Part shown: positions 25,089 to 56,227 of the stretch, piece by piece
How the letters are laid out: the number at the start of each line of letters is the position of its first letter
How positions within the stretch are numbered: the first letter of the stretch is position 1
Assembly: GCA_033675265.1 (NCBI GenBank)
Contig: JAUJYZ010001041.1
Span: forward strand, 186,001 to 250,000
Direction of reading: 5' to 3'
Origin: Actinostola sp. cb2023
Taxonomy: Eukaryota; Cnidaria; Anthozoa; Actiniaria; Actinostolidae
Length of the DNA: 64,000 nucleotides
Translations under genes and position numbers: made by a program
The notes under the pieces: generated by a model
What the model saw: the letters and a program-made list of their open reading frames with translations, nothing else
Database searches by the model: none
Told to the model about the DNA's origin: nothing

Positions 25089-25867
25089 GAGTGACTTCCT
25101 GTAAGAATCGACCAAATCGTGGCACAAGTCGAAAAATCAATTTTGCTCATATTTGGTGTATCGATAGGTTATAGTAAGAAAGTAAACGGTGCGAAGTTAG
25201 TTTTGAAAAAAATTAAATAGTTTCGAAGAAAACAAGGATTTTCATTATAGCCCTATTTACCGCTAAATCAGCTTCTAATTATGCATATTTTTACCCTAAA
25301 TATTATCGACTCGCTTTACAAAACCGTTACACAAATTTATTTTGAAACATTTTCTCTGTAATATTTAGACATTTCTCTTCCTTCTTGATGAAAAAAGAAT
25401 TCAAATTGAATGATAACGAAGGCGGGGGGAAATTCTAAACAAAGGCTATACTTTTCGCATTTGCGAAAATCAATTTGTATGGTAAACACACGGTAAAGGT
25501 TCGGCATGTGCAACTTCTCGAAATAACGTAAACTTTCACCCGAAGCCTTATTAGACATTTGCCTTTCGAAATATAAAGAGAAGTCTCTGGGCAAATTACT
25601 TTCACGCACCCTACGAGGCCCGTTTTTATCCCATAATTACTCTAATATTTTCGCTCGGTAACGCAAGTATCAGAGTCAACTCGTGACATAAATTTGTCAA
25701 TAATATATCGGAAAATATGAACAGATCTCAGCTGAATTATGTGAAATTGTTCATTTGCTATATTTACTTTTAGTACTATCGGAAGGACGGATATTTCGAA
25801 AATAATCCAAAAAATCAATGTTATTTCTGAACAGCTTTTGTGTTGCGTGACATGCCCGACAGCGGAT
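25089..25867 (+). repeat. Left terminal inverted repeat of element A
   Basis: Pairs with the right arm up to GTGACATGCCCGACAGCG. It holds no coding sequence; the 90-codon ORF at 25337-25609 (minus) is within the repeat and is not taken as a gene. It probably contains the transposase promoter and binding sites, which is inference. Confidence 0.85.
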
Positions 25868-26735
25868 GGAAACTTTTCTCTTCACTAGAATTTGGAAAGA
25901 TGCATGTATGTATCTTAAAAAGATGACAAAATGGCTGATTGTTCCTTTTTCATATTATTTTCCACATTGTGAAACGATATTAGACGTCTTGAGAAAAAAC
26001 TTAAAAATTTGCATATACATTGTGCACAACAAGCCGCTGAGTGGGAACAATAACGTATACTTAGTGTGTTATTGTGAAGACGGAAGTGTGTTGCTCCTTT
26101 AGAACCCTTGTTGGTGGTCCTTGTACATTCGACAAGAAATATAAAGTATTTAGTAGATATAACACCTTTAACTTCCTGCGTAAAGGATATCTCTGGACAT
26201 AAATCGCTGTTTGGCTTTCAAGATGTGGAAAATGAAATAGAACTAATTCTAGCACGTGCTCGAATATTTGAAATATGTCCTTCCACCATTGCGTCTCTAA
26301 CCATCTGTCCATCTCATCGCTCAAACCTTGGCATTGGTTGGATCAGAAGCAAGAAGACATGTTGTGTACCTACTGAGTTATCGCGTCATCATAAGGGAAA
26401 GTTTCCGAAAGCTGATAGAGGAATTTCAAAATTATTATCTCAGACAATAATGGATCAGACAGGCGTTTTTGTCCCGGTAGGCTTAGGTAAACAACAAATG
26501 TATTCACTACCTTTTGAAATTACTCTACAACAAAGAAAGAACAAATAATAATGAAATTACACTTATTGTTCTGCAGGTGTATGTAGATCTTGTAGAGAAG
26601 TATTGAAGTCCCACAGTAGCACAGATAGAGAGGCTACCTGTACACCAGAAAGAATGTTACTCGTGGACGACATGAGTGATTTAAATTTAGTGAGTTTTAT
26701 TACTAATAATAATTTGTGTAGTTTTCTTATCAGTA

Positions 26736-26895
26736 CAGTCAAACCTTACTTTTCGCACATGTTGAATTTGACCACACCCAAGGTCCATTTGTGTTTCCTT
26801 TCATTGGGCGCCAACGATTATTTTTAAAACGATCATGGCTATTCACCAAGGATGGCCGCTTAATAGAGGTGCGCCGCTTAATGGAGGTTTGACTA
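26736..26895. mobile_element. MITE in intron 2 of element A gene
   Basis: Begins CAGTCAAACCTTACTTTTCG and ends GGAGGTTTGACTA; the interior has TGGCCGCTTAATAGAGG. It belongs to the same terminal-sequence family as copies near 36750, 51715 and 54084. Confidence 0.6.
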
Positions 26896-28320
26896 ATTCC
26901 TCCCCATATGTTTTCCTGTAACTGCAACATGAATTTATTCAGTTGTTGTTGTGGTTTAACTTTTTTGTGAAGAGGGGAAACAGACAGTCTAATATAGTCC
27001 ACAATTTCTTAATGTATTAAGGATGACGATGATGATATATGCTTGACAACAAGTACTCCAGCCACCAAACCACTTCTGATGCAAACAGCTGATATACATG
27101 TACCTATGGATATGACAAGCTCATTTTTACCTTCAGACACTCAGGATGACTCCGCCTCACGAACGTTGAGAGATGTAAGTTCAAAATTTCAGCTAAATAA
27201 GTTCTTGGTATCAAGAGATATAAGCCCCGTCAGATCATGTCTTGCAACCCCTTGGAATGAAGCTGGAGATCGATCTAAACGATATTACATAAAGAAAGCT
27301 AGCCAGGCAGTTGCAGAATCGTTGAAGGTTATTGTCCCTAATGACCCTGATTTGCTGTGGCAGTCCCTTGTAGGATCACAAACAATCAATAAGCAGTTAT
27401 CTGTGTCGTCATCTCATGACGCATATATTCATAAAGATGACGCTCTACTTGAAAGCCTTGCTGAATGCTACAATGAAGCTGACCAGTGGGAAACTCGCCG
27501 TCAGATATTATCAATTATGGTCGAGAAAATCGATTACAGCACCCTAAAAAGGCTCATCCCGGATCTTACTCGATATCGCTATAAAATCGCAAAGCGACAT
27601 TCATTGCTGCATGGCAAAGGCGTTCCTGTGCCATCATCGAGTCATACAAGAATGCGTGTTCCTCAAGAGAAAGTAGAACACTTCATTTGCTTCATAACAA
27701 GCCAACACGTTATCAGTGATTTACCGTTTGGCGAGAAAAAGCTAACCCTCTCTTCAAAAGAGATAATTACAGTGCCAAATGTTATCCGAATGATTGTCCC
27801 AGAACGCATCGTAAAGCAGTACTTGCAGTTCTGTAATGAAACACATTTCAGCCCACTCAGTCGGAGTTCGCTTTTACGAATCTTACAAGTTTGCTCTGCA
27901 TCTGTTAGAACATCACTTCAGGGCCTTGATTACATCACAGAGTCTGGATCAAAAGGCTTTGATGATCTTGAAGATGTCGTTGATAGGCTAGGAGATCTGC
28001 GTCAGGATATGTCATGGGCCAAACAGACGAAACATCAACTAAAATTGGCCAAGCGCTATCTGAAGGGAGATTTTAAGGTGAGAATAAATAGCAATCTCAG
28101 AGTGATTGAAAATCCCGCAGCGGCCCACATGCACACCTGACAAGAATGAGACTGGGGATGTAACATTCCATGGGGGATTTGCTGACAACGTTTATTGAAG
28201 CATATACAGCTGTATACGACATTTTAATATCAGAGCATGTCAGAATTAGTCGTCATGTAACTAATATTGATGCCAACTCCGTTTGAAACCTTTTGTCTTG
28301 ATATCGTAATATATACACAC

Positions 28321-28481
28321 ATCAAGAGTTCCAGACTTCCGGTGCGCGCGCAATGCATTGTGAGAATATTACAAAGGAAAAGTGAGCACCAAGTGAGAAA
28401 AATCATTGCTTGGGCTCCCTGTGTCTAGAATTGGTGCTCACGTTTCCTTTGTAATAATACCGGAAGTCTGGAACTCTTGAT
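28321..28481. mobile_element. Foldback MITE in intron 3 of element A gene
   Basis: ATCAAGAGTTCCAGACTTCC...TTACAAAGGAAAAGTGAGCA pairs with TGGTGCTCACGTTTCCTTTG...GGAAGTCTGGAACTCTTGAT. No coding sequence; no target duplication defined. Confidence 0.7.
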
Positions 28482-31019
28482 GCTTGTATACGTAATGCAT
28501 CATTTTATTTATTTTATTTCTATTTTTTCACCCGTGCGTTCGTAGTTATTTATTTTTTGCTTATTTTTTGCTTATTTTTTGCTTCCCGAAAAAGGTACAA
28601 TCATCGATATAAGTACTTATATATATTTGATGTATTATTTTCAGGTTCATATTTCCTGTTCGTCAACCGTTCCTGATCATTGCCGAACACATGCATTGAG
28701 CGACCCCAAAGACACAGACTTCCATGGGGTTTGTGACCACGCCCATGATGGCCTCTGTGATCGCTGTGATCATTTAGCCTTAACACTGAATAAGATTGAC
28801 AAAGCCCTTGACAGTGTAACAGGGACACCTGAAGAGACCGACGAACTTTTGTTCAACATCAAACATGCCAAGCAAAACATCGATGCATGGAAGGCTCACC
28901 TCCTTCGCTCGCTCAACCAGGACGATGCAAGGCTGGATATACTTGAAGATCTAGACAAGAACTCCGTTTTGCTAGTACAAGACTGGGCAATGAAGTATTT
29001 ACCCAGAAAGTATCGTGAAAGCCAGAGGGACTGGTTTGCTAAACGAGGACTACCCTGGCATATCACTGTTGCTTTCAGACGAGGCCAAGCCGATGAGATA
29101 GAAATGGCGACGTTTGTTCATGTGTTTCAAACATGCACTCAGGACAGCATAACAGTTTTGTGCATCATGAAAGATGTGTTGAGGCAACTAAAAGACATCA
29201 TGCCAGACCTTAAATCTGTGTTTTATAGACAAGATAATGCAGGTTGTTATCATTCGGCGTTAACAATTACTACTGCCAGAAATATTGCAGAAGCTGCTGG
29301 AATCAAAATTATGCGAATGGATTTTTCAGAACCCCAAGGTGGGAAAGGGGCATGTGACAGAAAAGCGGCAGCCATATAAAATCACACATGCGCTTGTATC
29401 TCAACTCTGGTAAAGATATCGAGACCGCGGCTCAAATGAAAGAGGCAATAGAATCGTCAGGGGGACTTCCAAGTGTCAGTGTAACACTTTGTGGCACACC
29501 AAACAACACACCATCCACCAAACGTACCCTCAAATGGGAAGGTGTTAGCTTGGTTTCCAATATTGAATATTGTGAGGAAGGACTTCGCATATGGAGGGCT
29601 TATAATGTCGGTCCAGGGAAACTTCTTCCCTGGAGCAAGTTCGCTAATTCTAGCCAACTACCAAGCATCACCATCATTGAGAACAGCAGTTCACAGGTCC
29701 AGTTTGCATTGCCAAAATCTAGAAAGTCCTCCAATAAAGTGTCACCTGATCATCAAAACAGTACCGATGAGAGTGATGAGGTCCAAAGCGATGACTCAGA
29801 GGAGGATGATCATGAGGTTGTAGCTGGTTATCCAATCAGTTCCAAAAACGCGACAAGCAAGCTATTTTGTTGTCCAGAGGATGGATGTGTGAAGTCATAT
29901 CAGAGATATTCAAGTTTACAACATCATCTTGAATGCGGACGACATCGAAGGGAATTGGAGAGAGAAACACTCTTAGACAAAGCAATGTGTAGCTATGCCA
30001 ATAGGCTTGAAGTGGGAGGCGCAAGAATGCAAGCAGCGACGAATAGTTCGTATCAGCAAGGGTTGGATGTGCATCCCAGCTCTAATAAACTTCCTGCCCC
30101 AATGGGATGGTCACTAAAAACATCGAGCACTAAAAGAGTCAAGTTCACAACAACGCAGAGAGATTATCTCCGCAAGAAATTCCTTATCGGTAAAACGACA
30201 GGGCGTAAGCTAGACCCATCCATAGTTGCTAAGGACATGCGCAGTACTAAAGATGTGTTAGGTGATCGACTGTTTGCAGTCGATGAGTTTTTGACAAGTC
30301 AACAAATAGTAAGCTATTTTTCAAGATTGGCGTCAAGCGGCACGTTTGAAAACATTGAAGAGGAAGAAAAAGAAGAATCAGAGGATGTGGGGAACAGTGC
30401 TAAAGAAGAGAAGGCAATAGAAGACATGAAGTCACTTGTGGCGAAGGAAGTAGATCTCAGTCACCCAATCATTTATGACACACACAATATTTGTGAACTT
30501 GTGGCCACTGATAAACTAAGCGTCACATTCAGTGTCACTGCTTTGCGAGAGATCTGTCTTTATTTTGACATAGATGTAACTGATGTTACAGCGAAGCGCA
30601 AGAAGCCCTACACAGAGAAACTTCATCGTCTAGTGGGGTCATGCACCTGTCATCTCACCAAAGCCTGCTGACTGTAGGTTAGAAGATTGTAAAGGGAGCG
30701 ATAAATTAACAGACAATTAGAGTCACTAAGCAAGAAGTGTGAGTATCTAAATGTTAAAAGCTAATAATTTCTTAGGTGTTTCAACGTACTGTATTTTTCG
30801 CAATAACTACAATCATGCGGTGTATTTTCCCGCCTTTCAATCGACAAGTAGCGCATGATGTACCCAGGCACATTCTTGTGTACATTTGTGTTTTGTTGGT
30901 GATATAGTCTATTTACAGTTTGATAGTTTGGTGAACTATACTTTCTGTCAGACTATATACGTACATTTCTATACATTTTAGCATAAACTTTCTTTCAGCG
31001 GAATATATATGAAAATACC

Positions 31020-31791
31020 ATACGCTGTCGGGCATGTCACGCAACACAAAAGTTGATCAATATTAATAACATTTTTTTTTTGCAATATTCGTCCTTCCGA
31101 TAGAACTGAAAGTACAAAAGTTAATTTAGCAAATGACCAATTTCCCCCTTTATTTATTTCCATATATATTATTGACAAATTTATGTCACGAGTTGACTCT
31201 GATACTTGCGTTACCGAGCGAAAATATTAGAGTAATTATGGGATAAAAACGGGCCTCGTTGGGTGCGTGAAAGTAATTTGCCCAGAGATTTCTCTTTATA
31301 TTTCGAAAGGCAAATGTCTAATAAGGCTTCGGGTGAAAGTTTACGTTATTTCGAGAAGTTGCACATGCCGAACCTTACCGTGTGTTTACCATACAAATTG
31401 ATTTTCGCAAATGCGAAAAGTATAGCCTTTGTTTAGAATTTCCCCCCGCCTTCGTTATCATTCAATTTGAATTCTTTTTTCATCAAGAAGGAAGAGAAAT
31501 GTCTAAATATTACAGAGAAAATGTTTCAAAATAAATTTGTGTAACGGTTTTGTAAAGCGAGTCGATAATATTTAGGGTAAAAATATGCATAATTAGAAGC
31601 TGATTTAGCGGTAAATAGGGCTATAATGAAAATCCTTGTTTTCTTCGAAACGATTTAATTTTTTTCAAAACTAACTTCGCACCGTTTACTTTCTTACTAT
31701 AACCTATCGATACACCAAATATGAGCAAAATTGATTTTTCGACTTGTGCCAGAATTATTAAATTTTGGTCGATTCTTACAGGAAGTCACTC
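31020..31791 (-). repeat. Right terminal inverted repeat of element A
   Basis: Reverse complement of 25089-25867. Differences visible include ATTTAATAATTC in place of ATCG near the tip and a run of T near 31073-31080. The 66-codon ORF at 30978-31178 (minus) overlaps its inner border and is not supported. Confidence 0.85.
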
Positions 31792-31795
31792 TTAA

Positions 31796-31904
31796 TAAAA
31801 CAACTGTCCGATGGCCTTTTTAGGTGTAAACACGTTCCAGAATGACTTCGGATATTCCAAAACCAAAATTTCAGCAAATAACATTGAAAAATGAAATTCC
31901 TTGC
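31796..31904 (-). pseudogene. Helitron helicase, 5' exon piece beyond element A
   Basis: In the frame that joins 25084 across the TTAA target, this stretch gives HLKRPSDSCFI leading into NNYFVAG, as in Helitron replicases. It is preceded by CTTTTCTAG, a possible splice acceptor (about 31904). Its joining to the main fragment shows that element A inserted into the Helitron and not the other way round. Confidence 0.7.
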
Positions 31905-32149
31905 CTAGAAAAGAGAAGATTTTGGCAAGCTTTTATAAAAAGAGGTCCAATCAGCTAACAGGTGTAGGACTGCAGGCAACGTTTGTTGTATCATCGAGAA
32001 ATCTGCTAAAACCAGTCAAATTTGAAATTGAAAATGAAATTCAAATTTGCCAGCTTGACCATTTTTAATGGCAAGATTTAATTTGCTTATAATATGTTTG
32101 CCAAAGAGGAAAATATGGCATCATAAATAAGTGCAAGAAGCATTTACTT

Positions 32150-32535
32150 GCTGAACCCAACAGTATGTCGGCATTTGCCAACTTCCCTGCAACTCGGCAT
32201 TTGCCAAACCAGAGAATTCCGGCATATGCCAGCTGAGAGGAAGTTGGCAAATGCCGACTTAGAGAATTCCGGCATTTGCCAGCTGAGAGGAAGTTGGCAT
32301 TTGCCAACTCAGAGAATTCCGGCATTTGCCAACTCAGAGGAAGTTGGCATTTGCCAACTCAGAGAATTCAGGCTTTTGCCAACTCGGAGGAAGTTGGCAT
32401 TTGCCAACTCAGAGAATTCCGGCATTTGCCAACTCAGAGGAAGTTGGCATTTGCCAACTCAGAGAATTCCGGCATTTGCCAACTCAGAGGAAGTTGGCAT
32501 TTGCCAACTCAGAGAATTCCGGCAATTGCCGACCA
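32150..32535. repeat. 25-bp-period array with GGCATTTGCC core
   Basis: About 15 units of 25 bp: six variable bases (alternating AATTCC and GAAGTT, making a 50-bp dimer), GGCATTTGCC, then AACTCAGAG. In the GAAGTT units the core extends to GTTGGCATTTGCCAAC, a near-palindrome. Early units are more diverged, one carrying the core inverted (GGCAAATGCC). ORFs through it in three frames are a by-product of the periodicity. Confidence 0.9.
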
Positions 32536-33061
32536 AAACTGCTACAATCTAGGCTTTAGGTTTCTGTTACCAACAACATTCAATAATAACTTTTTATTTT
32601 CAATCATGGTCTTCCTTGAAAATATTTTTTTTACAAAGCAAGAAGTTTCTCAATGTAATGGATTTATATTGTTGTACACACAATACTTTTCTTTTCTTTT
32701 ACGTATCTAATCAATTTCGTCAGAAATTATACTGTAATTACGGTAACAAATTGCAACCAAATATAATAAGACTGTCCTTGAATAACCTATCTATTTTAAA
32801 TGACCAGTTATCGCTATTTTGAAATCGGTTGCATTCAAGTTATCACTTTAATAGCACACAATTGTCCTGACAAAATACATGTACTTGCCACAGCCACTGA
32901 TTCTGAAATAAACAAACAAAACGTTAATAAAATACCGTACAGTTCCGAAAGTAGCGAGGTCGTTACTTTCGGATTGAGCAACCTTAAGTAACTGTTACTT
33001 TCGGGGGAGTCGCTACTTTCGGGGTGCTAAAATCGTTAACTTTTAGGAGCCATACCGTGTA
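32536..33061. other. No gene seen
   Basis: AT-rich; near 32935-33045 the word GTTACTTTCGG(G/A) occurs several times in both directions. No supported gene. Confidence 0.4.
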
Positions 33062-33509
33062 CAGGGTTCCCACTGACCTTGAAAAGTTAGTGAATTTGAT
33101 TTTTTTTTTTCAAGGTCAGGGAATTTTGATTTTGGTCAGGGAATGTTGTAATTTACCCAAAAGTCAGTGAAAAGTCAGGGAATTTATGTCAGCCTTCACA
33201 AAATCGATATGTACAGTGTAGCATAATTATGGGTAACATTTAGACAGATTGTGATCAATCATGATGAAAACTCACAAAAAAGTTTAAAAGTTGTCATTGA
33301 CCTTATATGGTCCATGTAAATGTATTTCTTCATACATATTACTGTACATACAGTATATACATAAAAAGACTATAGTAAATGTAAGTCGCACTGCAGGATA
33401 TCATAGTAAAACAAGAGTACAGTATGGTCAGTGAAAAATGGTTTTTGGTCAGTGAGAAGTCAGGGAAAAGCCAGATAATTTTATTTTTTACGGATGAGTG
33501 GAAACCCTG
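33062..33509. mobile_element. hAT-like MITE, about 450 bp
   Basis: Begins CAGGGTTCCCACTGACCTTG and ends AGTGGAAACCCTG, a 13-bp imperfect terminal inverted repeat of the CAGGG...CCCTG type common in hAT elements. The interior repeats GTCAGGGAAT-like words. No 8-bp duplication was recognised. Confidence 0.55.
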
Positions 33510-34077
33510 GTTATTTTTATGTCAAACGATTCTAGTATCCTGATCTCGAAAATCAACACTTGTGCATAAGCCATAAAGATCACATAATACGCTACGCTAT
33601 ATAATATATGCGCAGTAGAGTTGCACAGTGCAAAACTAAGGAATCACCTTAAATGCCCCCTCAGCCAGCTTCAGGGACATTTAATCACTAATACCCCTCG
33701 GTGCCATGATATTACTTATAATAAAACACTTGTGCTAGTTTATTCATGATCACAAATCAACCAATGTATGACAATGTATGACATGCAGCAAATCACAGCT
33801 ATACAATGTATACATGTAAATGTATATTTGTGTAACAACACCTGTATGTGTTGTATAACCTGCTTAGCTGAAGTCTGCTCTCTCTCACTCTTCCTTCAAT
33901 GAGGACGAGCGAGCTTTGCCAACTACATGTACATGTACATGCAAGGTACTTCCACCCAAAAAAGTAACATTTCTCTCTCTGGCTCTTATTGTGTACGTAT
34001 ACACCATTTAGGCTTTTTTTGTTCAGATATTTTAACAGCATGTACAATACGAACCAAGACCTGCTCAATCACATGAG

Positions 34078-34149
34078 TTCCCAGTGGCTCAGTGGTTAGA
34101 GCGCCTGACTGGTATCCAGGAGGTCACGGGTTCAAATGCCGTCTGGGCT
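34078..34149 (+). tRNA. tRNA-Thr(GGU)-like sequence, possibly pseudogene or SINE
   Basis: 72 nt fold as a cloverleaf: D arm GCTCAGTGGTTAGAGC, anticodon arm CCTGA-CTGGTAT-CCAGG with anticodon GGT (U33 and A37 present), five-base variable loop, T arm ACGGG-TTCAAAT-GCCGT. The box A (TGGCTCAGTGG) and box B (GGGTTCAAATG) promoters are good. The acceptor stem pairs only five of seven positions and the T stem has one mismatch, so a pseudogene or tRNA-derived SINE head is likely. Confidence 0.5.
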
Positions 34150-36037: not shown

Positions 36038-36136
36038 TAGCCGGAGAAAACAGCTGTCTCTCATCACGTACATCAATTCCTAGGTGGAATCAATGTATGC
36101 GATGAGAGACAGCTGTTAATTTTAATTCTCAGGCTA
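36038..36136. mobile_element. 99-bp foldback MITE, TAG...CTA ends
   Basis: TAGCCGGAGAA...AGCTGTCTCTCATC pairs with GATGAGAGACAGCT...TTCTCAGGCTA. The ends resemble those at 23165-23271, but no clear 9-bp duplication flanks this copy. Confidence 0.6.
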
Positions 36137-36189
36137 TATGTACCGACAGTATACATATGATATAGTATATACAATGTATAGACAGTATA

Positions 36190-36338
36190 CACCGAATCGA
36201 AATATGGCGACCAATTTGAATAACTATTGTTCTGGTCTGACCAACCTCGTGTTCACGTGGAAAGACAAAAGCGTTTTCACATGAATGGTCAGTCAGGAAC
36301 AAAGTTATTCAAATTGGTCGCCATGTTTCGATTCGGTG
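36190..36338. mobile_element. 149-bp MITE with TA duplication
   Basis: CACCGAATCGAAATATGGCG...CTGGTCTGACCA pairs over about 55 bp with its right end ...GCCATGTTTCGATTCGGTG. TA on both sides (36188-36189, 36339-36340), as in mariner-type insertion. Confidence 0.75.
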
Positions 36339-36749
36339 TATAGCCATGCTATTTCAATTGTATATTACATACATGCCATGGTTCACTTTGCCTATTTACA
36401 AATTTGATTTCATATTTGACACTTTTCTGTTTTTCTTCAATAGAGTGAAGCATAAACAAATCTAACACAATCATGGTGCTTGGACAAATGGATGCAAAAG
36501 AGGTCAAAAAAGTGATAGCTACAATGTAGCACTAAGTGAACAGTCTACAAAATAGTATTGAAATATTTTGATTTAAGTTAAGAATTATAACTTAATATTA
36601 TACCTTATTATTTTTGTCGTGCAATCGTCATTGAACGTTTTTTGAAATAGCGCATTGTATTTTAAATTCACTAGATGCACAGGATTATTTGTGGACAGAT
36701 GAGGTTCGAGTGAATGAATACGAGGAAAAAATGACACAAGTGCATAGTA

Positions 36750-36880: not shown

Positions 36881-37669
36881 ATATTGCTGTGAGCCGCCAG
36901 GCGAGCAGCGAAACTAGTCTTGATGGAGTTCCTGTGTCATGTTTGGTCATGTGGGATCTGGGCACTGGGACAAGGGTGGGAATGAGAATCAATAGATATA
37001 TGGGAGGGAAATAGGTTTCTTGTAAGCTAGAACACATGACAGTAATAAAGTTATTATTATTATTATACTGCATTTTTATTATTTTATATTACCACTAATG
37101 TGCCTTGCTGACAAGGGACAGCCACATGTATGCATTGAAAGCTACATGTACGGCAGTGCACAACTCGCAGCACTTCACTTTCTACCAGAAACGACTAGTT
37201 TAAGCTCTTGTGATGTATTGTAATACGTAAGCACGATACCTGCACATTGCTACAATATTTAGTATGATGTGCACTTGCAAACAACGTTTCACACAACAAT
37301 GCACATGGTTTGCGTCTAAGACTTATTGAAGAAGTTATTGAGTATTGACTAATACGACTCAGCCTCTGGAGTGATTTAGAGTTTTGGTTTTGTTATAGTC
37401 AATCAGCTTGCAGCATTCCGCTAGTGCTCATGCAGTGGAATAGAACTACACACTGTACACGGATAAAATAATAATAACTGTATATATTTTTAAATATAAC
37501 TGTATATATTTTTTTAATATATACAAGTAACTGGTAGAATAGACTACAAATGACCTCGTGTATTATTTTATATTTAATTAAAGCTTTTACAATATTTCTA
37601 CATCTTTTATTGATTATGCAGTGTTTGTCTCTGACTTCCTACATCTTGTTTGAATCTTATCTCAGTGAA
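36881..37669. other. No gene seen
   Basis: AT-rich spacer; an overlapping minus ORF at 36777-37073 has no domain. AACTGTATATATTTTTTAA-type repeats lie near 37480-37530. Confidence 0.45.
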
Positions 37670-37957
37670 AACCGTGAATGCTGGCATTTGCCGAAACCGT
37701 GAATCTTGGCATTTGCCGAAATTTTGAATGCTGGCATTTGCCAACATCGTGAATCTTGGCATTTGCCGAAATTTTGAATGCTGGCATTTGCCGACATCGT
37801 GAATCTTGGCATTTGCCGAAATTTTGAATGCTGGCATTTGCCGACATCGTGAATCTTGGCATTTGCCGAAATTTTGAATGCTGGCATTTGACGACATCGT
37901 GAATCTTGGCATTTGCCGACATTTTGAATGCTGGCATTTGCCGACATCGTGAATAGG
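37670..37957. repeat. Second 25-bp-period array with GGCATTTGCC core
   Basis: About 12 units alternating TGAATGCTGGCATTTGCCGA + CATCG and TGAATCTTGGCATTTGCCGA + AATTT, again a 50-bp dimer of two 25-bp units. The core and period are the same as in the array at 32.15-32.54 kb, but the spacer words are unrelated. Confidence 0.9.
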
Positions 37958-38144: not shown

Positions 38145-38515
38145 GCACACCGAATTCCAATTGCTCACACCGAATTCCAATTGCTCACACCGAATTCCAA
38201 ACGCTCACACCGAATTCCAATTGCTCACACCGAATTCCAAACGCTCACACCGAATTCCAAACGCTCACACCGAATTCCAATTGCTCACACCGAATTCCAA
38301 ACGCACACACCGAATTCCAATTGCTCACACCGAATTCCAAACGCTCACACCGAATTCCAAACGCACACACCGAATTCCAATTGCTCAAACCGAATTCCAA
38401 ACGCTCACACCGAATTCCAAACGCTCACACCGAATTCCAAACGCTCACACCGAATTCCAAACGCTCACACCGAATTCCAATTGCTCACTCGCAAATCGAA
38501 ACTCACACCGAATTC
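38145..38515. repeat. 20-bp tandem array, about 18 copies
   Basis: Unit CTCACACCGAATTCCAA(TTG or ACG), 20 bp. The two variants (AATTG, AAACG) alternate irregularly. Because 20 is not a multiple of three and no unit holds a stop in any + frame, all three + frames stay open; the resulting peptides are not evidence of genes. It ends about 85 bp before the ATG of the integrase-core gene. Confidence 0.9.
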
Positions 38516-38598
38516 CATAACCTCACAACGAGTGGGCTTCCTGTGCCAAGTAGGAGAGACTGGGAAGGATACATCGCCATTTCTCCCTCTCCACAACA

Positions 38599-40560
38599 AT
38601 GGCGTCCAGTTCGGTTCTGTTGTGCGACAGTTGTAACAAAAATGTATCGTTGGACGACAACTTCTGCACTTTTTGTGGGGTAAAACTAAACGCTGAGGAA
38701 ATTGCCATCAAATACTATTTTACGGAGGGATATCAGTACAGTGTTATTTTGGAAATGCTATGCAAATACCACGGTATACAAATGTGTATGCGAACTCTAA
38801 AGAGCAGGCTTAGTATACTTGGGCTTTGCCATGCTCGAGAATCCATCGGTGCTCTTCGGCGTGGGCTCGGATGAAACATCGCCCCGCCAGAGAACCGCTG
38901 GAGAACTTACCTGCTAAAACGACTTCTGGGGCGTAAGACAATGCTGGCTTCTGATTGACCCTATTTTTTGTCACAAAAAATAGGGCCAATCAGAGCTCAG
39001 CCATATTTTCATTCATTAAAACGGACGCCGTCGGCAAAAGTCAGTGTTGACAGCTGTTGAAAGGACTGTTGAAAGATGGATCCAAGAGATCAAAGTTGTT
39101 TACAAGATATTTAAAAATATTTATGCACTTCAGTCATTCCCTGCACGGTTCATAGTCAGACAGATGTCCATAGAAAATCGAAGCGATATTTTTTCGATAA
39201 CAGTTTGATTATCAACTGACATTGCCGGAGTTAGACGACAGAGAAATCCTGAACATGCCCGTGAACGGCAAAAGACGTGTCCAGATTTTGTTTTAAAGTC
39301 TGGAAGTTTTGGTTGGAGACGACAAGTACGTTACCTTGTGCGCCAGAGTCTTCTTTTGACCTCCTTCCCGAGAGAGGGAGAGCGAGGTCAAAAGAAGACT
39401 TACCTTACAAGCTGTCAAACCGCAATGAGATTATGTCTCCGTCCAGGTTGATGCGCTCGAGTGCGTATCACGCCCCAGAAGCCGTTCTAGCAGGCAAGTT
39501 CTCCAGCGGTTCTCTGGCGGGGCAATTTCCGAGCCCACGCCGAAGAGCACCGATGGATTCTCGAGCATGGGGCTTTGCCGAAGGTCAGTTGACTTTGATG
39601 AAGGAGAAATAAGAGCGAGAATACAGCAAGAGCTAGATGGACCTGGCTGTATGGCTGGTTACAGGAGTGTATGGCACACCTTACGTCTAGAGGGCTTCCA
39701 GGTACCAAGACAAACAGTTGAACAGTATTTACGAGAAATGGATCCCGATGGTTGTGAAGCCAGAACCAGACGTCGACTGAAGAGGAGAGTGTATGTCAAT
39801 CAGGGGCCAAACTGCTGCTGGCACATGGATGGATACGACAAACTGAAACCATATGGATTTCCGATACATGGTTGTATCGATGGTTTTAGCCGAAAGATGT
39901 TGTGGTTAAGACTATCAAGATCAAACAACAATCCTTCAGTGGTGGCCAACTGGTACCTGGAAGCTGTCAAAGAGCTGGGAGGTTGTCCTGTAAAGATACG
40001 AACTGACTGGAACTGAAAATGGAATTGTAGCAGCCGCACAGTGTTATTTTATGAATGACGATAAAGCCCATATATATGGAACATCTCCACATAACCAGCG
40101 CATTGAAGGATGGTGGTCTTATTTGAGACGAAGTAGAACGAGCTGGTGGATTAATTTTTTAAAAGACTTGATGGAACAAGGCATCTTTACTACAGGAAAT
40201 CCTCTTCAAATGGAGGGTTTGTGGTTTTGCTTTTCTAGTGTCATTCAGCAAGATTTGAACATAGTAATGGACCACTGGAATACCCACTACATTCGAAAAT
40301 CAAGATTTGACACTGTAAGTGGAAGGCCAGATGAGCTATTTTACTTACCTGAATTGCATTCTGGGAAAGATTGTCTTAATCAGGTTACAGAGCAAGAGTG
40401 TCATTTTGTCAGGGAAAATGGTTTAACCCCAAGGGAATCAAGAAATGAATATCAAGAATACTTTGCATATGTAATGCAAACTGCAGGATTACTTCAACCT
40501 AAGAGCTGGAGAGAAGCCTTAGCCCTTTATCAGCAACTACAGCAGTATGCAACTGTCTAA
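38599..40560 (+). pseudogene. Integrase-core (DDE) protein, interrupted
   Basis: ATG at 38599 (ACAATGGCG) opens a zinc-ribbon start (CDSCNKNVSLDDNFCTFCG) and a helix-turn-helix-like region (GYQYSVILEMLCKYHG ... TLKSRLSILGLC). After an inserted element the frame resumes at about 39579: PGCMAGYRSVWHTLRLEG, WHMDGYDKLKPYGFPIHG (first Asp), VKIRTD (second Asp), SPHNQRIEGWWSYLR (Glu). This is the rve-like integrase-core family seen as multicopy genes in fish and marine invertebrates, related to Ginger-type transposases. It ends at 40560 (QQLQQYATV). Besides the insertion, a frame shift near 40008-40015 falls just after the second Asp, probably by loss of two bases in a G-rich spot. The single-exon layout suggests a transposon gene. 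Confidence 0.8.
38830..39569. mobile_element. 740-bp foldback element with 9-bp duplication
   Basis: GGGCTTTGC is duplicated exactly (38821-38829, 39570-39578). The outer about 105 bp at each end are inverted copies beginning CATGCTCGAGAATCCATCGG. Removing the element and one duplication restores the integrase-core frame. Internal small hairpins lie at 38953-38993 (CCTATTTTTTGT...) and 39345-39400 (GTCTTCTTTTGACCTC...). Long inverted ends plus 9-bp duplication suggest a Mutator-like non-autonomous element. Confidence 0.85.
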
Positions 40561-42225: not shown

Positions 42226-43300
42226 TGTTCTACACTCTACATTGCAAGTTTTATGTTAGATTAGACTCCAACGGTATACACATGCATAGTAATACATGTC
42301 ATTATATAACAGTGCTTATAAATATTAATTACAAGACTAGCTATTGTGAGTTTTATGTTACATTAGACTCCAACGGTATACACATGTATAGTGATACATG
42401 TCATTATACAACATTGCTTATGTATTTAGACTCCAACGGTATATTCTACATTGTGAGCTTTTAATGTTACATTAATTAGACTCCAACGGTATACACATGT
42501 ATAGTAATGCAATTACAGTATATACAAGACTCTACATTGTGAGTTTTATGTTACATTAGACTCCAACGGTATACACATGTATAGTAATGCAATTATATAC
42601 AAGACTCTACATTGTGAGTTTTATGTTACATATTAGACTCCAACGGTATACACATGTATAGTAATGCAATTATATACAAGACTCTACATTGTGAGTTTTA
42701 TGTTACATTAGACTCCAACGGTATACACATGTATAGTGATACATGTCATTATATAACATTGCTTATGTATATAGACTCCAACGGTATATTCTACATTGTG
42801 AGCTTTATGTTACATATTAGACTCCAACGGGATACACATGTATAGTAATGCAATTATATACAAGACTCTACATTGTGAGTTTTATGTTACATTAGACTCC
42901 AACGGTATACACATGTATAGTAATGCAATTATATACAAGACTCTACATTGTGAGTTTTATGTTACATATTAGACTCCAACGGTATACACATGTATAGTAA
43001 TGCAATTATATACAATACTCTACATTGTGAGTTTTATGTTACATTAGACTCCAACGGTATACACATGTATAGTAATGCAATTATATACAAGACTCTACAT
43101 TGTGAGTTTTATGTTACATTAGACTCCAACGGTATACACATGTATAGTAATACATGTCATTATATAACATTGCTAATGTATATATTAAATACAAGGCTAT
43201 AATACAGTGTGAGTTTTATGTTACATTAGAACTCCAACGGTATATTCTACATTGTGAGTTTTATGTTACATATTAGATTCCAACGGTATACATGTACATG
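42226..43300. repeat. 75-bp satellite array, about 13 copies
   Basis: Consensus start CTCTACATTGTGAGTTTTAT, then GTTACATTAGACTCCAACGG and TATACACATGTATAGTAATG, with CAATTATATACAAGA completing 75 bp; some units gain TAT or swap the last part for CATGTCATTATATAACATTG. ORFs through it are repeat artefacts. Confidence 0.9.
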
Positions 43301-46555: not shown

Positions 46556-46559
46556 GATG

Positions 46560-48465
46560 AGTTCATCGCAGCTACGGCTATTAAAACTGCCGTTAGAGAA
46601 CGTCGAGAAAAAAATATCACGAAGGAAAACGAAAAATCCAAAAAGATACGATTGAAATATAAACCATGTCGAAGCCAAGTAATCACATTGTTATCGATTT
46701 CACGTTGAATTTAAAAAAATGAATGAAGCCAAAAAGGAGCTGTTTTCAAAGTAAAACACAGAAATTCAAAAACAGCGATTTAGGCACTTTTCAAAAATTC
46801 ACAACGTCGCACGAAATCACCCTAGCTGCTCGAATTTGGCCTCAAAAGAAAGCTTGAGACGCTGGCTTTTCGCTTCCCGCCATCGATTGGAGCTGTAGTG
46901 ACAAAAAATACCATGTAGGGGAGGGTAAGCATGCTATAGTCCGTTGATGATTAATTAGTTACCAGTCTCCCAAAAGTACCGCGCGTCCAAGGTCGAAACT
47001 GGCCCCAAAAACTGGTGCCGATTTTGACTGTGTTTTTGCCCGACGTGTAAACATATCTAATTTTCTGATTGGCTGATTGCCTGACACACCTCTCAATCTG
47101 TCACTCGACACGCTATTATTACGTTACATTATTACAACATTGGTTTACATAAAGTCGCAGTGGCCAATCTCCGACAAAGGGAATGCAATATACCGGTGAT
47201 GCGGCCTCTATTTTAAATGGTACTCGATGGATAACAAAGTAATTTTGAACGGTTTTGCGCTCAACTTTTTATTTTCACTAAAGCTTGCATAAGCCAACTT
47301 GACTCAGTGAATCCAGTAAACGTTGAATCAAAACTTGAATGAAGTAAACCGTAGTTTTTACAGAGATTTCAAGTCATTCAGATGCCGTTATACACACAAA
47401 AATATTCACAATCCATTTTTAAGTCATTTTAGGTAAAATACACAAGAAACAATGCTTACTTATACTTTCACTGCTTGTTTGATTCTTTCGTGACTCGTCT
47501 TGTCGCTCATCATCATGTGTTTCACGGCAAATTTGTTTGTGAATAGCCTTGTGAAAACTCTTCAAACGCCACATCGATAATTACAAGATACCACTAAACC
47601 ACATCCAAGAATAAATTGAAGTCACTTTCGAAATAGTTTGATGAAAGAGACGAAAATACGTCTTTGAATGTCTTTGGCTAAGCAGGCAGCTTTGCATCCA
47701 CACGCTACAACGATCAACAGCCTTTTTGGAAAACCAGCAATTTTCACGACTTTATCCTTAGATTTTCCATCGGATTTAGTCTTTTTTTAAATGCACTTTT
47801 AAATCGATTACGTTGATTCTTGGGAATGTTTGCAGAACAGCAAGAAGAAAGTACAAACAGCGACCTTCTTCATGCAGCGACTTTCTTGTTGAGTTGACAG
47901 TAGTCTTCGGCGTACATGTTGTTCATTCAATCCTACAGACCACAACACAAGGCGACTTTTTGGACTCTGTTCGAACTTAAACAACTCCTTTCCATATAAA
48001 ATAAATTATTGCGATGCTTTTCTGATGATTTCAGTCAAAATCAGAGTCAAAATACTCGGCCTAAATTAAAAACACAATACATCTGCTTTGAACCGGAAGT
48101 TAGTTTTTCTCGAACGTCCGCATTCTAAAAATAGATTTAGTGAAATTAACATATCCCAAGCCCTATACTGGAAGACTCCCTCTCTGTCCCTCATGGTCTC
48201 TTGGCTCTATCTAAACATATATCGCACCCGACCCTTACAACCAAAAGAGCAGTTAAAATCATGTATCTAAACCGAAGTGCGAGTAAAAAATTTCCGATAT
48301 GATTGTTGGCTATCAAATGTACGCATTATTTAGTGTGAAATGTATTGGTCCATCATTTTGGTGTAGAACAGTAGTACACCAACCAACATGGCGGTCAAAA
48401 CGTGACGAGTCCTTTTGAATTGTTTGCTAAATCTGGGATGAAGGACAGGGCTGTGTAAGGCTGTG
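46560..48465. other. Upstream region, no gene recognised
   Basis: Between the GGDGAPFG gene and element B. An ORF at 48088-48270 (plus) has no domain. The region may hold the promoter of the minus-strand gene. Confidence 0.4.
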
Positions 48466-48469
48466 TTAA

Positions 48470-49522
48470 GAGTGCCTCCACGAGAGGACCAGGCAGATGT
48501 GATACATGCTATCTCTCCGATTTTAATGAAACTTTCCCAAAATAAAGGTTATGGGTAGAAACTCAAGAATCCAAAACCGTTTGGTTTTTCGATTTTTCCC
48601 TGGCGAGATAGACCACCCCCCCTGCTTTTTCAGGGGGTACGCGAAAATTTCCACCTGTAATTTTTACAGAATATGCTATAATTTATTGTCAGTTCACAAG
48701 AGTAATGATACATACTTTGTTAACTTACATGCCCAATTTTAACTTATTTGGAATTTTGCCTGTCAATCAGTGGCTGTCAATCATTAACTACGTCACACAA
48801 TATTTTCAAAGACGGCCAAAACACGACATTTTAGGACTAAATATCTCCAATGCGCATCTTTCCTAAGACAGACAGTTATATCTCGTGTCACATCTATCCT
48901 AGTACTACCTAAATCCGTCATAAAATTTTTGGCATCTGTTAAATATTTCGCGCAGCCCTCACTCGAAGTCTCTAACCAGCATAATGAAACTCACTTTCAA
49001 AAAAAGTAAAAAAAAACATTTGAAATGGTTCACATTAACAAATGGGGTTTATCGTTATTGTAATATCCTACTGATACCTTGTGATAAAGTAATTACCAAT
49101 ATGACATAGTAAATATAATATAATAATAACAATTGTGGTCGAATAGCGGCTGAAAACGATCATATATTTCGAGCTTTCTCGCATCCATGTAACTCAGCCA
49201 CACAAAATACAAATCTTTGCAAAAAGCCAAAATAAATGATACTCACATATCATTTCAAAGTCACGACTTGTTTATTTGCATCAGAAGCCGTAAAGACCAT
49301 CTCTGCTTCATGTTAATTAGCCGTAATCCAGTGCACTCGAACGTGACAGACGGCACATTATATGCACTGATTGTTCAAATCTCGCCTACAACAACGTTGA
49401 ATCAACCAAACAAACTTATTCCTTGGCTTAAATGAGGATTTGTAAACACCTATGTGATGAAAAATGTCAAAATATATTATTGGAGTCCATTGAGTTGGGT
49501 AATGACAGACTGATTGCGTGAC
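48470..49522 (+). repeat. Left terminal inverted repeat of element B
   Basis: Pairs with 55146-56227. It contains ORFs of 63 and 72 codons that recur in mirror position in the other arm; because both arms are one duplicated sequence, this is not evidence of coding. Confidence 0.9.
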
Positions 49523-51714
49523 AGGAGCTCGAATCTAAAAATAGCCTACAGGTAAAAGTTATGGGCTTTGGCCGTAATAACAGGTTTTTTAAAAGATAAT
49601 TTTCGTTAATATAATTTGTGCAACTGATTATATTTGTTCATTTTGCTTTAAAACGACCACTGAATTTAAAAATAATATGAACAGCTTTCAATATACCAGC
49701 TTATAGTTCAAGTTCTCTTCTTATCTGAAGCCTTGTTTTCATTCTGTTAGTTTCAAAAGTTGTGACCTCAGTGTACTCGTCTTCCTCCTCAGTTGGTACT
49801 TCCGTTACTTCCTTCCTTCACAATTTGCCGCTTTTGTTGAGTGCTGAGAGTCGGCTAAAATACCTTGCAACTTGGTCACTTGTAAGCCATTCTTCTTTTT
49901 GAAAGGTTTTTTCCCCACTGGCAGAGCGCTCTCTTTTCATTTTTGAGGCGATATCTGAGGCGTTTGCTTTGATTCCTGTGTCCTCACCATGGAAGAAAAT
50001 GTCAGTCAGATAGGATTTTACTGCAGTGGAAAAATGGGTAGACCTTCTGGTTTTCTTCAGTGCCCAACCTTGCTGTAATACTGGCGTAACGTCATCTGAT
50101 GAAGTGGCTGATGTTGAAGGGACGTTCTGCAAATAGGAACCGGAAACAGTTTTGCATGTTTCGGCCCATTTCATTCTGATTTCATCATATGTAGACTCTC
50201 TCTCAAGTTTTACTAGGTGTTTGCCAACATCGAGGTGCTTTTGGAGGTTACGAAATGATTGGTATGTCTTTATGCAGCCTTCTTCTGGACAGGAAAAACG
50301 TGCATGCACGCTTTCAATATCTTCTTCTTGAGCCTGTGGTTGTTGTTCAGGTGCGATGGGTTGCTGCGATTGTACTGTTGTTGATCTCGTGAAACTACCA
50401 ACTTGTTGATGTGGTTGACTGAAGGGCTCCACAATCATCATATTTGTAGGACCTTGTAGAACACCATATTTGAGTAACTGAGTTTTACTAAATAATTTTC
50501 CAGGACCCACGTTATAGGCTTTCCACGATCTTGTCCCAGCGGATTCAAAGCTGAAATTGTTCAGCGACTGTACGCCAGACATTGTGTGCTGTAACATAGT
50601 TTGTGAGGAGACCTGGATCTGGGCAACAGCGGTATAACACCCTTTCACGCCACCATATGACTCTATAGCGGTCTTCATGTCACTTGCTGTCTGAATATCA
50701 TTTCCTTCATTCAGAAATCTTCTCATGTGACTTTTGGTTGCCGCAATGCGTCTGTCGCAAATATCTTTTCCCGCTTATGGATCACTGAAGTCAAACCTTG
50801 TTAGTTTAATTCCAACACGTTCGCCAAGACTTGGAAGAGACAAAATCATATATGCACAATGATAGCACCCTGCGTTATCGGAACGTAAAAAGGCTTCCTC
50901 TAGGGAGGGCTTGATAGATTTTAGAGTAGCGAGAGTGTGCTCTAGGATCGATGCCACAGAAAACCAATTTTGAGTGCATTGCGCAAATACGTGAATATAG
51001 CTTCTGGTCTGAAAATAAACGATATGCGAATTATAAATAACCATTTTTTAAGGGTTTGTTGAACAAAACAACATTATTATTATTATCAACGCCATATGCC
51101 ATCATCCTCATCATTTATCCTCATCATTATCCTCATCATGACACAGTAAAAAGTATAGGTAAATACTGACCTCAATTTCACCGTTTTCTTCTTTTGTTAT
51201 TGCCACTGAGACATGCCAGGACTTCCCTTTCTTTCCGAACCAGTCTCTTTGGGTTTCTCTAAATGTTGATGGTAAATATTTCATAGCCCAATCCATAATA
51301 ATAAGAACTTGGCTCGTTGTCAGGTTTTCGATGATGGTGCTCTTGGCTGTATCCTGATGTGCAGCTCGTAGAATATGAGACTTCCACTCATCTATCTTTG
51401 GAATGGCACTCTCTATATCGTGTTGCAGTTCATCGCATTGGTCGCTACCACTAAATTAAAAGAGACAACATATAGATGCAAATAAGTGACAAAATATAAA
51501 TAAACTTTTTAGGCTAAAATAAAACGATGCTACGTGCGCGTCGTCAGTGTGATGGACTTTAATTCGTCAAAGCGCAAAGCGTACTTGATTGGGTTCCCCT
51601 GTGGTAGAACGCGGGACGATTCCGCGTAAAAATATTTTTGCGACAACGTAAACCAGGCGATTCCCATTGTGAAGTACTACAGACACGGGGAGCTCAAAAA
51701 CAGTATACGTATAC

Positions 51715-51857
51715 TCTACTTCTCTAAAGTTTGTGGTCGCTTACACGATGCGTTCGCTTAGGTTTCAACTATAGTGATTTAACTTGGAACTGAACTTTTG
51801 GTATTTTGTAAAACTGGTCGCTTACGAGAGGTGGTCGCAACTGGAAGTTCAACTGTA
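51715..51857. mobile_element. MITE relative in intron of element B gene
   Basis: Contains GTGGTCGCTTACACGATG and GGTCGCTTACGAGAGGTGGT and ends GGAAGTTCAACTGTA, like the family member at 54084-54260. The left border is unclear. Confidence 0.45.
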
Positions 51858-54083
51858 TTTACCGTTAACAATAGATATTTGCGCTGCCTGTGGCTATACA
51901 CGCTAACTTGAAATATGCGTACCTGAAATTAAGTTCAGGAGAATTTATTGATAGTTGTAAATCGGTGATGGAATTCTTGATGTCCTCACATCGATCACAG
52001 ATAGTATTGTGTTGGTGCGTACACACCCCATGGAACTCAGGCTCTGACGTACTAAGCGCATACAAGCTGCAATGATCAGCGCATGGCGATTCCTTTGAAA
52101 CATGGATTTTATAGTCCGATTTTAAATACTGGCGAGCAGCTTTCAACTCAGATTTGATGTTTTTTGTCATTTCTTCATTTAGACCTGATAAAAAAAGAGA
52201 AGATGTATAAAGCAACCATAAAGACATGTCAGTTATATATAACATACATACCTAATAGACGCAATTTATCAGTTATTTCCTCCAGAGATGTCACTGCGTT
52301 TACTCCATCTGTCTGCGTACTATCCAGTCCAGCAAGGGATTTTTTTTGTGAAGCAGCACATATCTATACAAGACAATCAGTTATACATCAGTCATGTACT
52401 ATAATCACGTGATATAATATTCCACTTCAACAATGACTACTCTCTCCGGCTCTCAGTTGGCAAAGAGCAATCTTGAGAGATCGTAACTTAGACCCTGAAT
52501 TCGACAGTGCTAGATAGAGTGCAGACACCCACCTTAAGAATATGGAAGAGTGTTGATCGGCCAATCGGCTGGAATCCAAATTCAGCACAATACGACAGAT
52601 ATAGCTGAACCAGTCTGGAGGCTATTACTGTCCTCACAACATTGGGGATTTCTACCTTCTCGCCACTGGAAAGCTTGAGTAGCTTTGTTCCATATGCAAC
52701 ATCCTGCAGAAACGAGGGGCTTGAAATAAAATCTAAGAAGTGATCCACTTTCGCAGGGTCCAGCCGGCTTCTTTGTAATTTTGGTGGCTCGATCTGGTAA
52801 CCAGGCATGGTTTCAGTGGCGTGTTTTCTGGCCTCATCAATTCTCCACTTTGTAAGTCCAGGAATTAATGTCAGAAGTTCGATTTTTGAATAGTCTCCAA
52901 CAAATATCGACAGAATTTGTTGCCGCGTATACCAAGAGTCGGCCTCCTCATATAATCGTATCAGCTTTGAAATAAGGGAACCCTCAAGCAAGTCAGTTCC
53001 ACATGTAGTTTTGAACTTGTCGGCAACGTGCTGAAAGAGCCAGGTAGAATTTGCCGGTGCTATGGCATCCAACACTGTCTCTACAGCCTGAGTTGCTTTT
53101 CGTTTGTAGTATCGAGTTGTTGATGTTGAAATTTCTGTTACGTCAGTGTTTAGTTGAGATCGTATGGGACTGATATTTCCAGCTGTTCTTCTCAAGAAAC
53201 TATTAAGAAATAGCAGCCTGTCCTGTATCTTGGATGTTGGCTGCCACTCTTGTGAAGTCTCACCTGCCGTCACTGAGTCTTGGGATCCCGACGAAAAAAC
53301 ATCAGAATTATGATCACCGGTGGCAGCTGACTGTGTTGTCTGTAATATTTGAACCTAAAATCACCAAACCCACAGCATATATTACTATACGAAACAGTAC
53401 TGAACTATTCATATATTTGATTTATTTTCGATTTCACGGAGATTTCCAATGATTTCCCGCCACCAAAGCCCTGGTTTCCCTCTATTAGGCTGTGAGGTAT
53501 GTTCGTCGTATTGTTTCGAGATTGAGAGTGGTGAGTTAGTATATATATTTAGGCCGGTAGTTTTTTTTTACCCCGAGCAAAAAATATGAAGGACGAGGAG
53601 ATGTTTCAAGCAATAAGACTTACTTCACTCTCTTCCTGCTGATCTGGTCCAGGTCCCCCAGATTCCACAACGATTGATGACAAAGTGGTTTCTACCTCAA
53701 GGACTTTGTCACCTGTGTCAGTGTCTGGCTGCAGATCTACCTCCATTGTTACACTGGCACTTTGCGGAGAATCCAGTTGGGCCCGATGCTCATTTCGACA
53801 ACGTTTACATATGCCTGTTTGAAGGGACGAACAACATCATTATTATTTAACATTATTTGTTAATCTGGCATAAGGTATGGAAAAACGCACTACTTTGAGG
53901 TGTCCGCGGCACACTAACTACTGTACCCTACACCCATAGTACCCTCCCCAGTCTGTGGTCAATATCAGTAATTAATAATAAATATGTAATAAAATGCTAA
54001 TAATATTCATGATGATTACAGTAGCAGTACTAATTAACAGGATTTTAGCTCGAGGGGGCGGGCATGGGTTGATTATCTTAATA

Positions 54084-54260
54084 CAGTCGAACCTCCTGTA
54101 AGCGACCACCCAAAATGTCAAGCTTTGTGGTCGCTTACGAGAGGCGGTCGCTTACGAGAGGTATAGCGATTGGAACTGATCATCTGTTGGTATTTTGGAA
54201 AACTGGTCGCTTACGAGAGGTGGTCGCTTACGAGAGTGGTCGCAACCGGAGGTTCAACTG
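54084..54260. mobile_element. 177-bp MITE in element B, TA flanks
   Basis: Begins CAGTCGAACCTCCTGTAAGC and ends CGCAACCGGAGGTTCAACTG, with internal copies of GGTCGCTTACGAGAGG. TA stands on both sides. It lies between exons 1 and 2 of the element B gene. Confidence 0.65.
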
Positions 54261-55145
54261 TATTTTCATTTTTAACATACCAAAATCCACTCGCCCGGGA
54301 TAGTTAAGGCTGGTCAATTAGTATTGCATTGGGCTAAACATTAATCGATCAGTACGTACTATAGTAATAATCAAATGAATTAGGATTCCATACCTGCGCC
54401 AACGGAAAGAAACGTATTCCAATTTTTCGCAATTTCTCGAACCATTCCCAAGTTTGCTCCTCTTTCTGGTTTATTTTTGCGGTTCAAGTGCAATGGATGC
54501 TGACATTGCTTATGTGCTCTCCAATACACTCCCAGGACTGCGCGGTGTTTTGGACAGATAGTCATGTCTTGACCTTCCTCGTCAAATAGGCCAGCACGTG
54601 CAAGGATCAATGCCTTTTCGGAACGAACACACGACTGAGCGACTTTGATTTGTCTTAGGTGAGGCCTGATATCACTGGCACATGCACTCAATGCAAAGAA
54701 TTCTTGGTGACCAGGAAATCTTGGCGATACATCACATTTACTTTTACAGTGTGTAAAAAAGGAACACGACAAGCTTGACGACATAGCTCGCTCACCAAAC
54801 ATTGCTCATGTATTGACCTGGTATACTTTGCAGGCATTTATTTATACAGAATGACTTCATGTACAATTACGCAACAATTGCGTACACAGCTGACAATATT
54901 GCAGCCTTGAAATACCATATTTGGCTGGGAGATTTTCGCTTGAAAACATTGAGCAATAATTACGCAATTCACTATGTAATATAAAACTTTATGTTGTCAC
55001 AATATACCATGATGTCCCAAACAGACATTCAGTAAAACAATTCAAAGCGGAGACTTTCCTCAAGGCAAAGTATATGCCTAAGATCAAAAATGTACAAAAA
55101 CAGCACCAAAAAACTGTTTGTTTCATAGCAGACCATAGCATAGTC

Positions 55146-56227
55146 ATGTCACGCAATCAGTCTGTCATTACCCAACTCAATGGACTCCAATAATATATTT
55201 TGACATTTTTCATCACATAGGTGTTTACAAATCCTCATTTAAGCCAAGGAATAAGTTTGTTTGGTTGATTCAACGTTGTTGTAGGCGAGATTTGAACAAT
55301 CAGTGCATATAATGTGCCGTCTGTCACGTTCGAGTGCACTGGATTACAGCTAATTAACATGAAGCAGAGATGGTCTTTACGGCTTCTGATGCAAATAAAC
55401 AAGTCGTGACTTTGAAATGATATGTGAGTATCATTTATTTTGGCTTTTTGCAAAGATTTGTATTTTGTGTGGCTGAGTTACATATGGATGCGAGAAAGCT
55501 CGAAATATATGATCGTTTTCAGCCGCTATTCGACCACAATTGTTATTATTATATTATATTTACTATGTCATATTGGTAATTACTTTATCACAAGGTATCA
55601 GTAGGATATTACAATAACGATAAACCCCATTTGTTAATGTGAACCATTTCAAATGTTTTTTTTTACTTTTTTTGAAAGTGAGTTTCATTATGCTGGTTAG
55701 AGACTTCGAGTGAGGGCTGCGCGAAATATTTAACAGATGCCAAAAATTTTATGACGGATTTAGGTAGTACTAGGATAGATGTGACTCGAGATATAACTGT
55801 CTGTCTTTAGGAAAGATGCGCATTGGAGATATTTAGTCCTAAAATGTCGTGTTTTGGCCGTCTTTGAAAATATTGTGTGACGTAGTTAATGATTGACAGC
55901 CACTGATTGACAGGCAAAATTCCAAATAAGTTAAAATTGGGCATGTAAGTTAACAAAGTATGTATCATTACTCTTGTGAACTGACAATAAATTATAGCAT
56001 ATTCTGTAAAAATTACAGGTGTCTACATTTACTGCATTTTGGGTGGAAATTTTCGCGTACCCCCTGAAAAAGCAGGGGGGGTGGTCTATCTCGCCAGGGA
56101 AAAATCGAAAAACCAAACGGTTTTGGATTCTTGAGTTTCTACCCATAACCTTTATTTTGGGAAAGTTTCATTAAAATCGGAGAGATAGCATGTATCACAT
56201 CTGCCTGGTCCTCTCGTGGAGGCACTC
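55146..56227 (-). repeat. Right terminal inverted repeat of element B
   Basis: Mirror of 48470-49522 with few substitutions and an extra stretch of about 25 bp (around CTACATTTACTGCATTTTGG). It lies upstream of the transposase gene and so would contain its promoter. Confidence 0.9.

Follow-up and report, generated by a model that had tools for sequence, protein, structure and literature searches.

Elements A and B and their genes

The window analysed here, a stretch of 64,000 nucleotides from the sea anemone Actinostola sp. cb2023 (contig JAUJYZ010001041.1, positions 186,001 to 250,000 of the forward strand), holds two DNA transposons of the autonomous type, here called A and B, each flanked by TTAA and bounded by long terminal inverted repeats around a multi-exon gene. 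An earlier note on this DNA had placed two TTAA elements at 25089-31791 and 48470-56227, and the borders found here agree to the base. Their features, in positions of the window, are as follows.

Element A
25089..31791, + strand: element A, a 6.7-kb DNA transposon of the autonomous type; copy in the window broken
25085..25088, no strand: TTAA, left target-site copy (letters and pattern search)
25089..25869, + strand: left terminal inverted repeat, tip GAGTGACTTCC
26222..26486, + strand: modelled N-terminal exon, carrying the cysteine-rich LTICP.HR block, without an assigned start codon
26577..26689, + strand: exon 2 (CR.CR)
27022..28077, + strand: exon 3 (helical middle part)
28645..30671, + strand: last exon, with zinc-type HC/C.H.H...C..C block, RNase H-like DDD (three-Asp) core, C2H2 finger and C-terminal region
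28981..28983, + strand: first catalytic-type Asp codon (DWAMKYLP)
29233..29235, + strand: second Asp codon (DNAGCYH)
29356..29358, + strand: third Asp codon (CDRKAA)
29868..29945, + strand: C2H2 zinc finger (family profile matches solved C2H2 fingers)
31018..31791, - strand: right terminal inverted repeat
31792..31795, no strand: TTAA, right target-site copy (letters and pattern search)

Element B
48470..56227, - strand: element B, a 7.8-kb DNA transposon of the autonomous type; copy in the window broken
48466..48469, no strand: TTAA, left target-site copy (letters and pattern search)
48470..49526, + strand: terminal inverted repeat at low coordinates, tip GAGTGCCTCC
54394..54802, - strand: exon 1, candidate start ATG
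53624..53814, - strand: exon 2 (CR.CR)
52533..53354, - strand: exon 3 (helical middle part)
52252..52363, - strand: exon 4
51923..52184, - strand: exon 5 (zinc-type HC/C.H.H...C..C block)
51171..51450, - strand: exon 6, first Asp (DWAMKYLP, codon 51291-51293)
49818..51008, - strand: last modelled exon, with second and third Asp, YNVGPGKL and C2H2 finger
50877..50879, - strand: second Asp codon (DNAGCYH)
50754..50756, - strand: third Asp codon (CDRRIAA)
55144..56227, - strand: terminal inverted repeat at high coordinates
56228..56231, no strand: TTAA, right target-site copy, also the left TTAA of an adjoining 495-bp element

The tips reading GAGTG and the inverted repeats of about 0.8 and 1.05 kb given in the earlier note were likewise recovered, the measured lengths being about 0.78 and 1.06-1.08 kb. 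The two repeats of A (about 781 bp) are 91.2% identical counting gaps, with 727 of 757 ungapped columns alike, and those of B are 97.2% identical, with 1055 of 1060. The four termini of A and B are the only places in the window where the 9-mer TTAAGAGTG is found; by chance a mean of 0.72 occurrences is expected, and at least four were reached in one of 100 shuffles.

At the DNA level A and B are not alignable (best stretch 75% over 56 bp), but an alignment of their spliced proteins covers nearly the whole length, with 380 of 1069 columns identical (36%) and the blocks in the same order. Homologous multi-exon genes with a shared block order and one C2H2 finger had been proposed from the start, and the blocks named then were found. 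Both window copies are broken: A has a frameshift near 29377 in the last exon, and B has a single in-frame stop, near 50774, in its last modelled exon. These interruptions had gone unmentioned. The protein model of B has 1,088 amino acids up to its first stop; a full-length relative from Oculina has 1,186.

Beside B lies a second element of the TTAA type, at 56232-56726 (495 bp), with tips GGTGACTCC, inverted ends alike at 121 of 122 positions and TTAA on each side, its left TTAA doubling as the right one of B.

Copies and mobility in the Actinostola genome

The 424-Mb assembly of Actinostola sp. cb2023 (1594 contigs) contains 21 exact matches to the 25-base end of A with its TTAA, two of them in the window, and the reversed control gave none. 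Fourteen regions were fetched around the other 19 matches. Five hold full-length copies of A (6664-6710 bp, 98.7-99.8% identical to A), with TTAA on both sides and unlike flanks (10 bases compared), five hold shorter elements (1326-3465 bp) that have the ends of A and are likewise flanked by TTAA on each side, and the remaining four showed a single end of A. As the search pattern included TTAA, the independent test of the target comes from the second tips of the five shorter elements; the pattern had not matched these tips, and TTAA is present at all five. Of the six full-length copies, four keep an open frame over the last exon, and two, including that of the window, are broken. A is a multicopy, recently mobile element with derivatives that carry the same ends. 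These shorter elements suggest that, in cis, no more than the ends is needed and that the transposase is supplied in trans. For B, nine exact matches to the end were found, including the two in the window, and two further facing pairs lie about 7.5 and 7.8 kb apart.

Three of the shorter elements (L017, L020 and L022) match up to 0.98 kb of the left end of A, beyond its own 0.78-kb inverted repeat, and in L017 and L020 this longer match is found at both ends. The window copy of A interrupts a long frame (23647-25088 and from 31796) that by eye is Helitron-helicase-like (NNYF..., GGAGACKSH). When the flanks of A are joined with one TTAA, the frame stays open across the junction, for 516 amino acids in total and 36 past the junction; Pfam gave no match for the joined frame, and the Helitron-type label rests on motifs read by eye.

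The same genome houses further subfamilies. With 64 of 1203 candidates scored, an unbroken A-type protein, P0001, gave 79 genome match rows, and in 52 of these rows the identity is 45-54%. In two copies of one subfamily (L032 and L033), likeness ends exactly after TTAA, at the tip GTGTAAGGCC, for which the genome has no sites beyond those two. A candidate-tip pattern, TTAAGNG plus a subterminal motif, matched 6 of the 30 loci L025-L054, and the candidate tips beside L036, L038, L053 and L054 read GAGG, GAGACA, GAGTGA and GAGCGA. With up to two mismatches allowed, 20 sites match the L038 tip, 10 per direction, and none does in the control; TTAA is kept at 19 of the 20 (TTAA being part of the pattern), and one facing pair lies 1.5 kb apart. 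Among L041/L043, L040/L042/L044 and L045/L048, likeness between copies stops without TTAA within the loci compared, so that either the ends lie outside these loci or the copies are truncated.

Relatives in other animals

Protein searches scored 7990 candidates for A and 7993 for B, of which 282 and 310, respectively, matched at E 1e-3 or better; the best 120 of each were listed. Relatives among the matches listed are gene models of anemones, stony corals, an octocoral, amphioxus and a crinoid, to which B adds a nemertean (Lineus), limpets, a mussel and oysters. Their names at NCBI are mostly 'hypothetical', 'uncharacterized' or 'unnamed', and none of the matches listed for A or B carries a precomputed transposase Pfam domain. 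Two relatives from Paramuricea (P0076 and P0086) are named 'SURP and G-patch domain-containing 1', which is probably an erroneous name or reflects a fused gene model.

A and B are best explained as two families, separated by a deep split, of a single group of cut-and-paste DNA transposons. Since the tree was rooted at its midpoint, the B branch was flagged as long and the other 48 rows were picked from the best matches of A, it is read for the deep split between A and B and for nothing finer. The proteins of the crinoid Antedon (P0067) and the octocoral Paramuricea (P0076) are sisters in this tree and 69% identical over 881 positions, a likeness higher than expected for such distant hosts and one that may reflect horizontal transfer.

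Catalytic core and domain searches

The three Asp residues are conserved across alignments of 48 and 219 rows, with the second and third 37-41 residues apart in the 48 rows. The core of the A and B proteins is predicted to adopt an integrase-like RNase H fold that carries this conserved D-D-D triad. It is 8-14% identical to the retroviral integrase catalytic core, from which it differs in the third catalytic residue (D versus E) and in the flanking domains.

In scans with Pfam, NCBIfam and PHROG the core matched no domain convincingly. Weak rows for DUF7337, HEPPP_synt_1, RAG2, SIP1 and others were set aside, and a SAP row (best 3.4e-5, 4 of 48 members, in a scan that gives no cut-offs) is a hint at the nature of the C-terminus. 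A homeodomain-like reading, by eye, of the C-terminal FLT..QI.SFFSR block was rejected, as it found no solved structure at E up to 1. A pattern search of viral contigs returned 49 stretches, none of which was confirmed.

Probable assignment to Sola3

Sola3, named in 2009, is a third TTAA group beside piggyBac and Kolobok, and it is characterised by a 4-bp TTAA duplication, 5'-GAG tips and a DDD transposase with an RNase H-like core. The families of A and B most likely belong to this group, at a probability of roughly 0.75, an identity that we infer from these described features. The 4-bp TTAA duplication is matched by A, B and the derivatives, the GAG tip by A, B and the candidate tips beside L036, L038, L053 and L054, and the DDD transposase by the predicted structure and the residue conservation of the family. 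The earlier note had suggested a 'possibly unnamed superfamily' after weighing only piggyBac and Kolobok; this claim of novelty rests on the omission of Sola3, whose features fit, and is not supported. A and B are probably new families of a known kind.

Sola3 is a group within Sola and is entered as DNA/Sola-3 in RepeatMasker. It is a named group in Repbase (PMC4455052, PMC5753468). In corals, Sola-3 is reported from Acropora (PMC12314368) and ranks second by bases among the listed DNA families of three Caribbean species, with 17,315 copies in Siderastrea siderea (PMC11370458). A survey of molluscs gives 64 Sola3 elements, with Sola in bivalves alone (PMC10294476), and there are reports of Sola-3 or Sola3 from a nematode and from insects as well (PMC9297572, PMC5199201). 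The cited passages on Sola3 give neither sequences nor tips.

A possible sister domain was considered as well. In DUF7869 (PF25273) the order of the D.A, DN..G and D motifs resembles that of the A and B core by eye, and this domain is a candidate Sola-like domain. Weak Pfam rows for it appear in 3 of 48 members (best 0.0046), and hhalign of the whole profiles gave P 0.042 with the second and third Asp in register. With the cores cropped, scores fell within those of shuffles, and DUF7869 was dropped as a sister catalytic domain. A literature search on DUF7869 found nothing.

Several points weigh against the assignment to Sola3. Sola3 was likened to A and B by its described features, not by a reference sequence, and the tip of the L032/L033 subfamily reads GTG, not GAG. 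In their distribution, relatives of B occur in limpets whereas the passage cited from the mollusc survey confines Sola to bivalves (PMC10294476), and no nematode or insect relative is among the 120 matches listed for each of A and B. Elsewhere in the genome, the presence of TTAA beside the tips of A and B is in part a matter of construction, since the patterns included it, and the joined-flank frame, with only 36 amino acids past the junction, is weak evidence for an empty site. The link to DUF7869 was reached by 9 of 100 shuffles and, in a second comparison, by 14 of 60. Finally, a Foldseek search of the predicted core against PDB and viral models found no match at E 0.001 or better, the best rows being Argonautes (E 0.022), which are RNase H-like too.

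A and B could instead represent an unnamed TTAA-specific DDD superfamily, absent from repeat libraries and using the same mechanism, distinct from Sola3, Kolobok and piggyBac; we regard this as unlikely, if worth keeping in mind. Such a superfamily would be ancient, spread across Cnidaria, Mollusca, Nemertea, Echinodermata and Cephalochordata, and would target TTAA through a compact integrase-like core, a picture to which we give equally little weight. The lack of a convincing Pfam, NCBIfam or PHROG match for the core, the uninformative NCBI names of the relatives listed and the absence of a Sola3 reference sequence from the comparison would fit it. The genomes of Branchiostoma, corals and oysters have long been curated for Repbase, however, and since relatives occur in all of these, a TTAA group this large would hardly have gone unnamed; the features of Sola3 fit besides.

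A divergent Kolobok lineage is improbable. According to the passage cited, Kolobok has a TTAA duplication, 5'-RR..YY-3' tips and a C/DxxH motif between the second D and the last E (PMC9587614), and A and B do share the duplication and such tips (GA..TC). Between their second and third catalytic residues, however, C/DxxH is found in none of 48 rows and 3 of 219; the third residue is D where Kolobok has E, the second and third Asp are closely spaced (37-41 residues), and THAP is not among the best 25 of 27 Pfam families for the 48 members at E up to 0.1.

A divergent piggyBac lineage, which would share the TTAA duplication and the DDD triad, is more improbable still. The tips of piggyBac are 5'-CCY, not GAG (GAGTG) as in A and B, and its second-to-third Asp spacing is unlike their short one. 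No piggyBac Pfam family was found in eight exon translations (E up to 1), in nine relatives (E up to 0.5) or among the same best 25 of 27 families for the 48 relatives. By the features compared here, A and B are neither piggyBac nor Kolobok; the earlier note had seen no piggyBac DDD signature and no THAP domain. A large multi-exon gene with ordinary gene models in many animals might suggest a family of host genes that came to lie between inverted repeats by chance. This reading can be given almost no credence and is refuted for A by six full-length copies, that of the window among them, whose TTAA borders are exact and whose flanks differ, and by shorter derivatives that share its ends.

Each element encodes one transposase of the DDD type. 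Its cysteine-rich N-terminal block, zinc-type cluster and C2H2 finger likely bind the inverted ends, and the DDD core would cut at the tips and join them to a TTAA target, leaving the 4-bp TTAA duplication; the shorter derivatives would be mobilised in trans. For the A and B products we infer end binding, chemistry and excision; the fold is predicted, and the triad is conserved.

TTAA-specific transposons such as piggyBac are prized tools for their scarless excision. Under the Sola3 assignment, the value of A and B would lie in complete, multi-copy, near-identical families with open transposase frames in a sea anemone, in a model of the core structure in which the DDD triad is defined, and in protein alignments for a family that is outside Pfam and annotated as 'hypothetical'. 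Should they not be Sola3, they would represent a further TTAA superfamily of animals. The near-identical copies with open frames would make good test material for a little-studied TTAA transposase.

Other mobile-element traces in the window

Two overlapping frames at 39429-40557 jointly match the Pfam integrase core rva_4 (PF24764) and mark another broken mobile element. The frames at 109-1399 and 11827-12540 resemble, by eye, a Polinton-type DNA polymerase (YLDANNLYGWAM) and a Pao/BEL-type integrase, respectively, and have no Pfam match at 0.001. Tandem arrays of short units lie at 12659-13084, 32169-32530, 37669-37954, 38146-38531 and 42247-43292, several of them close together.

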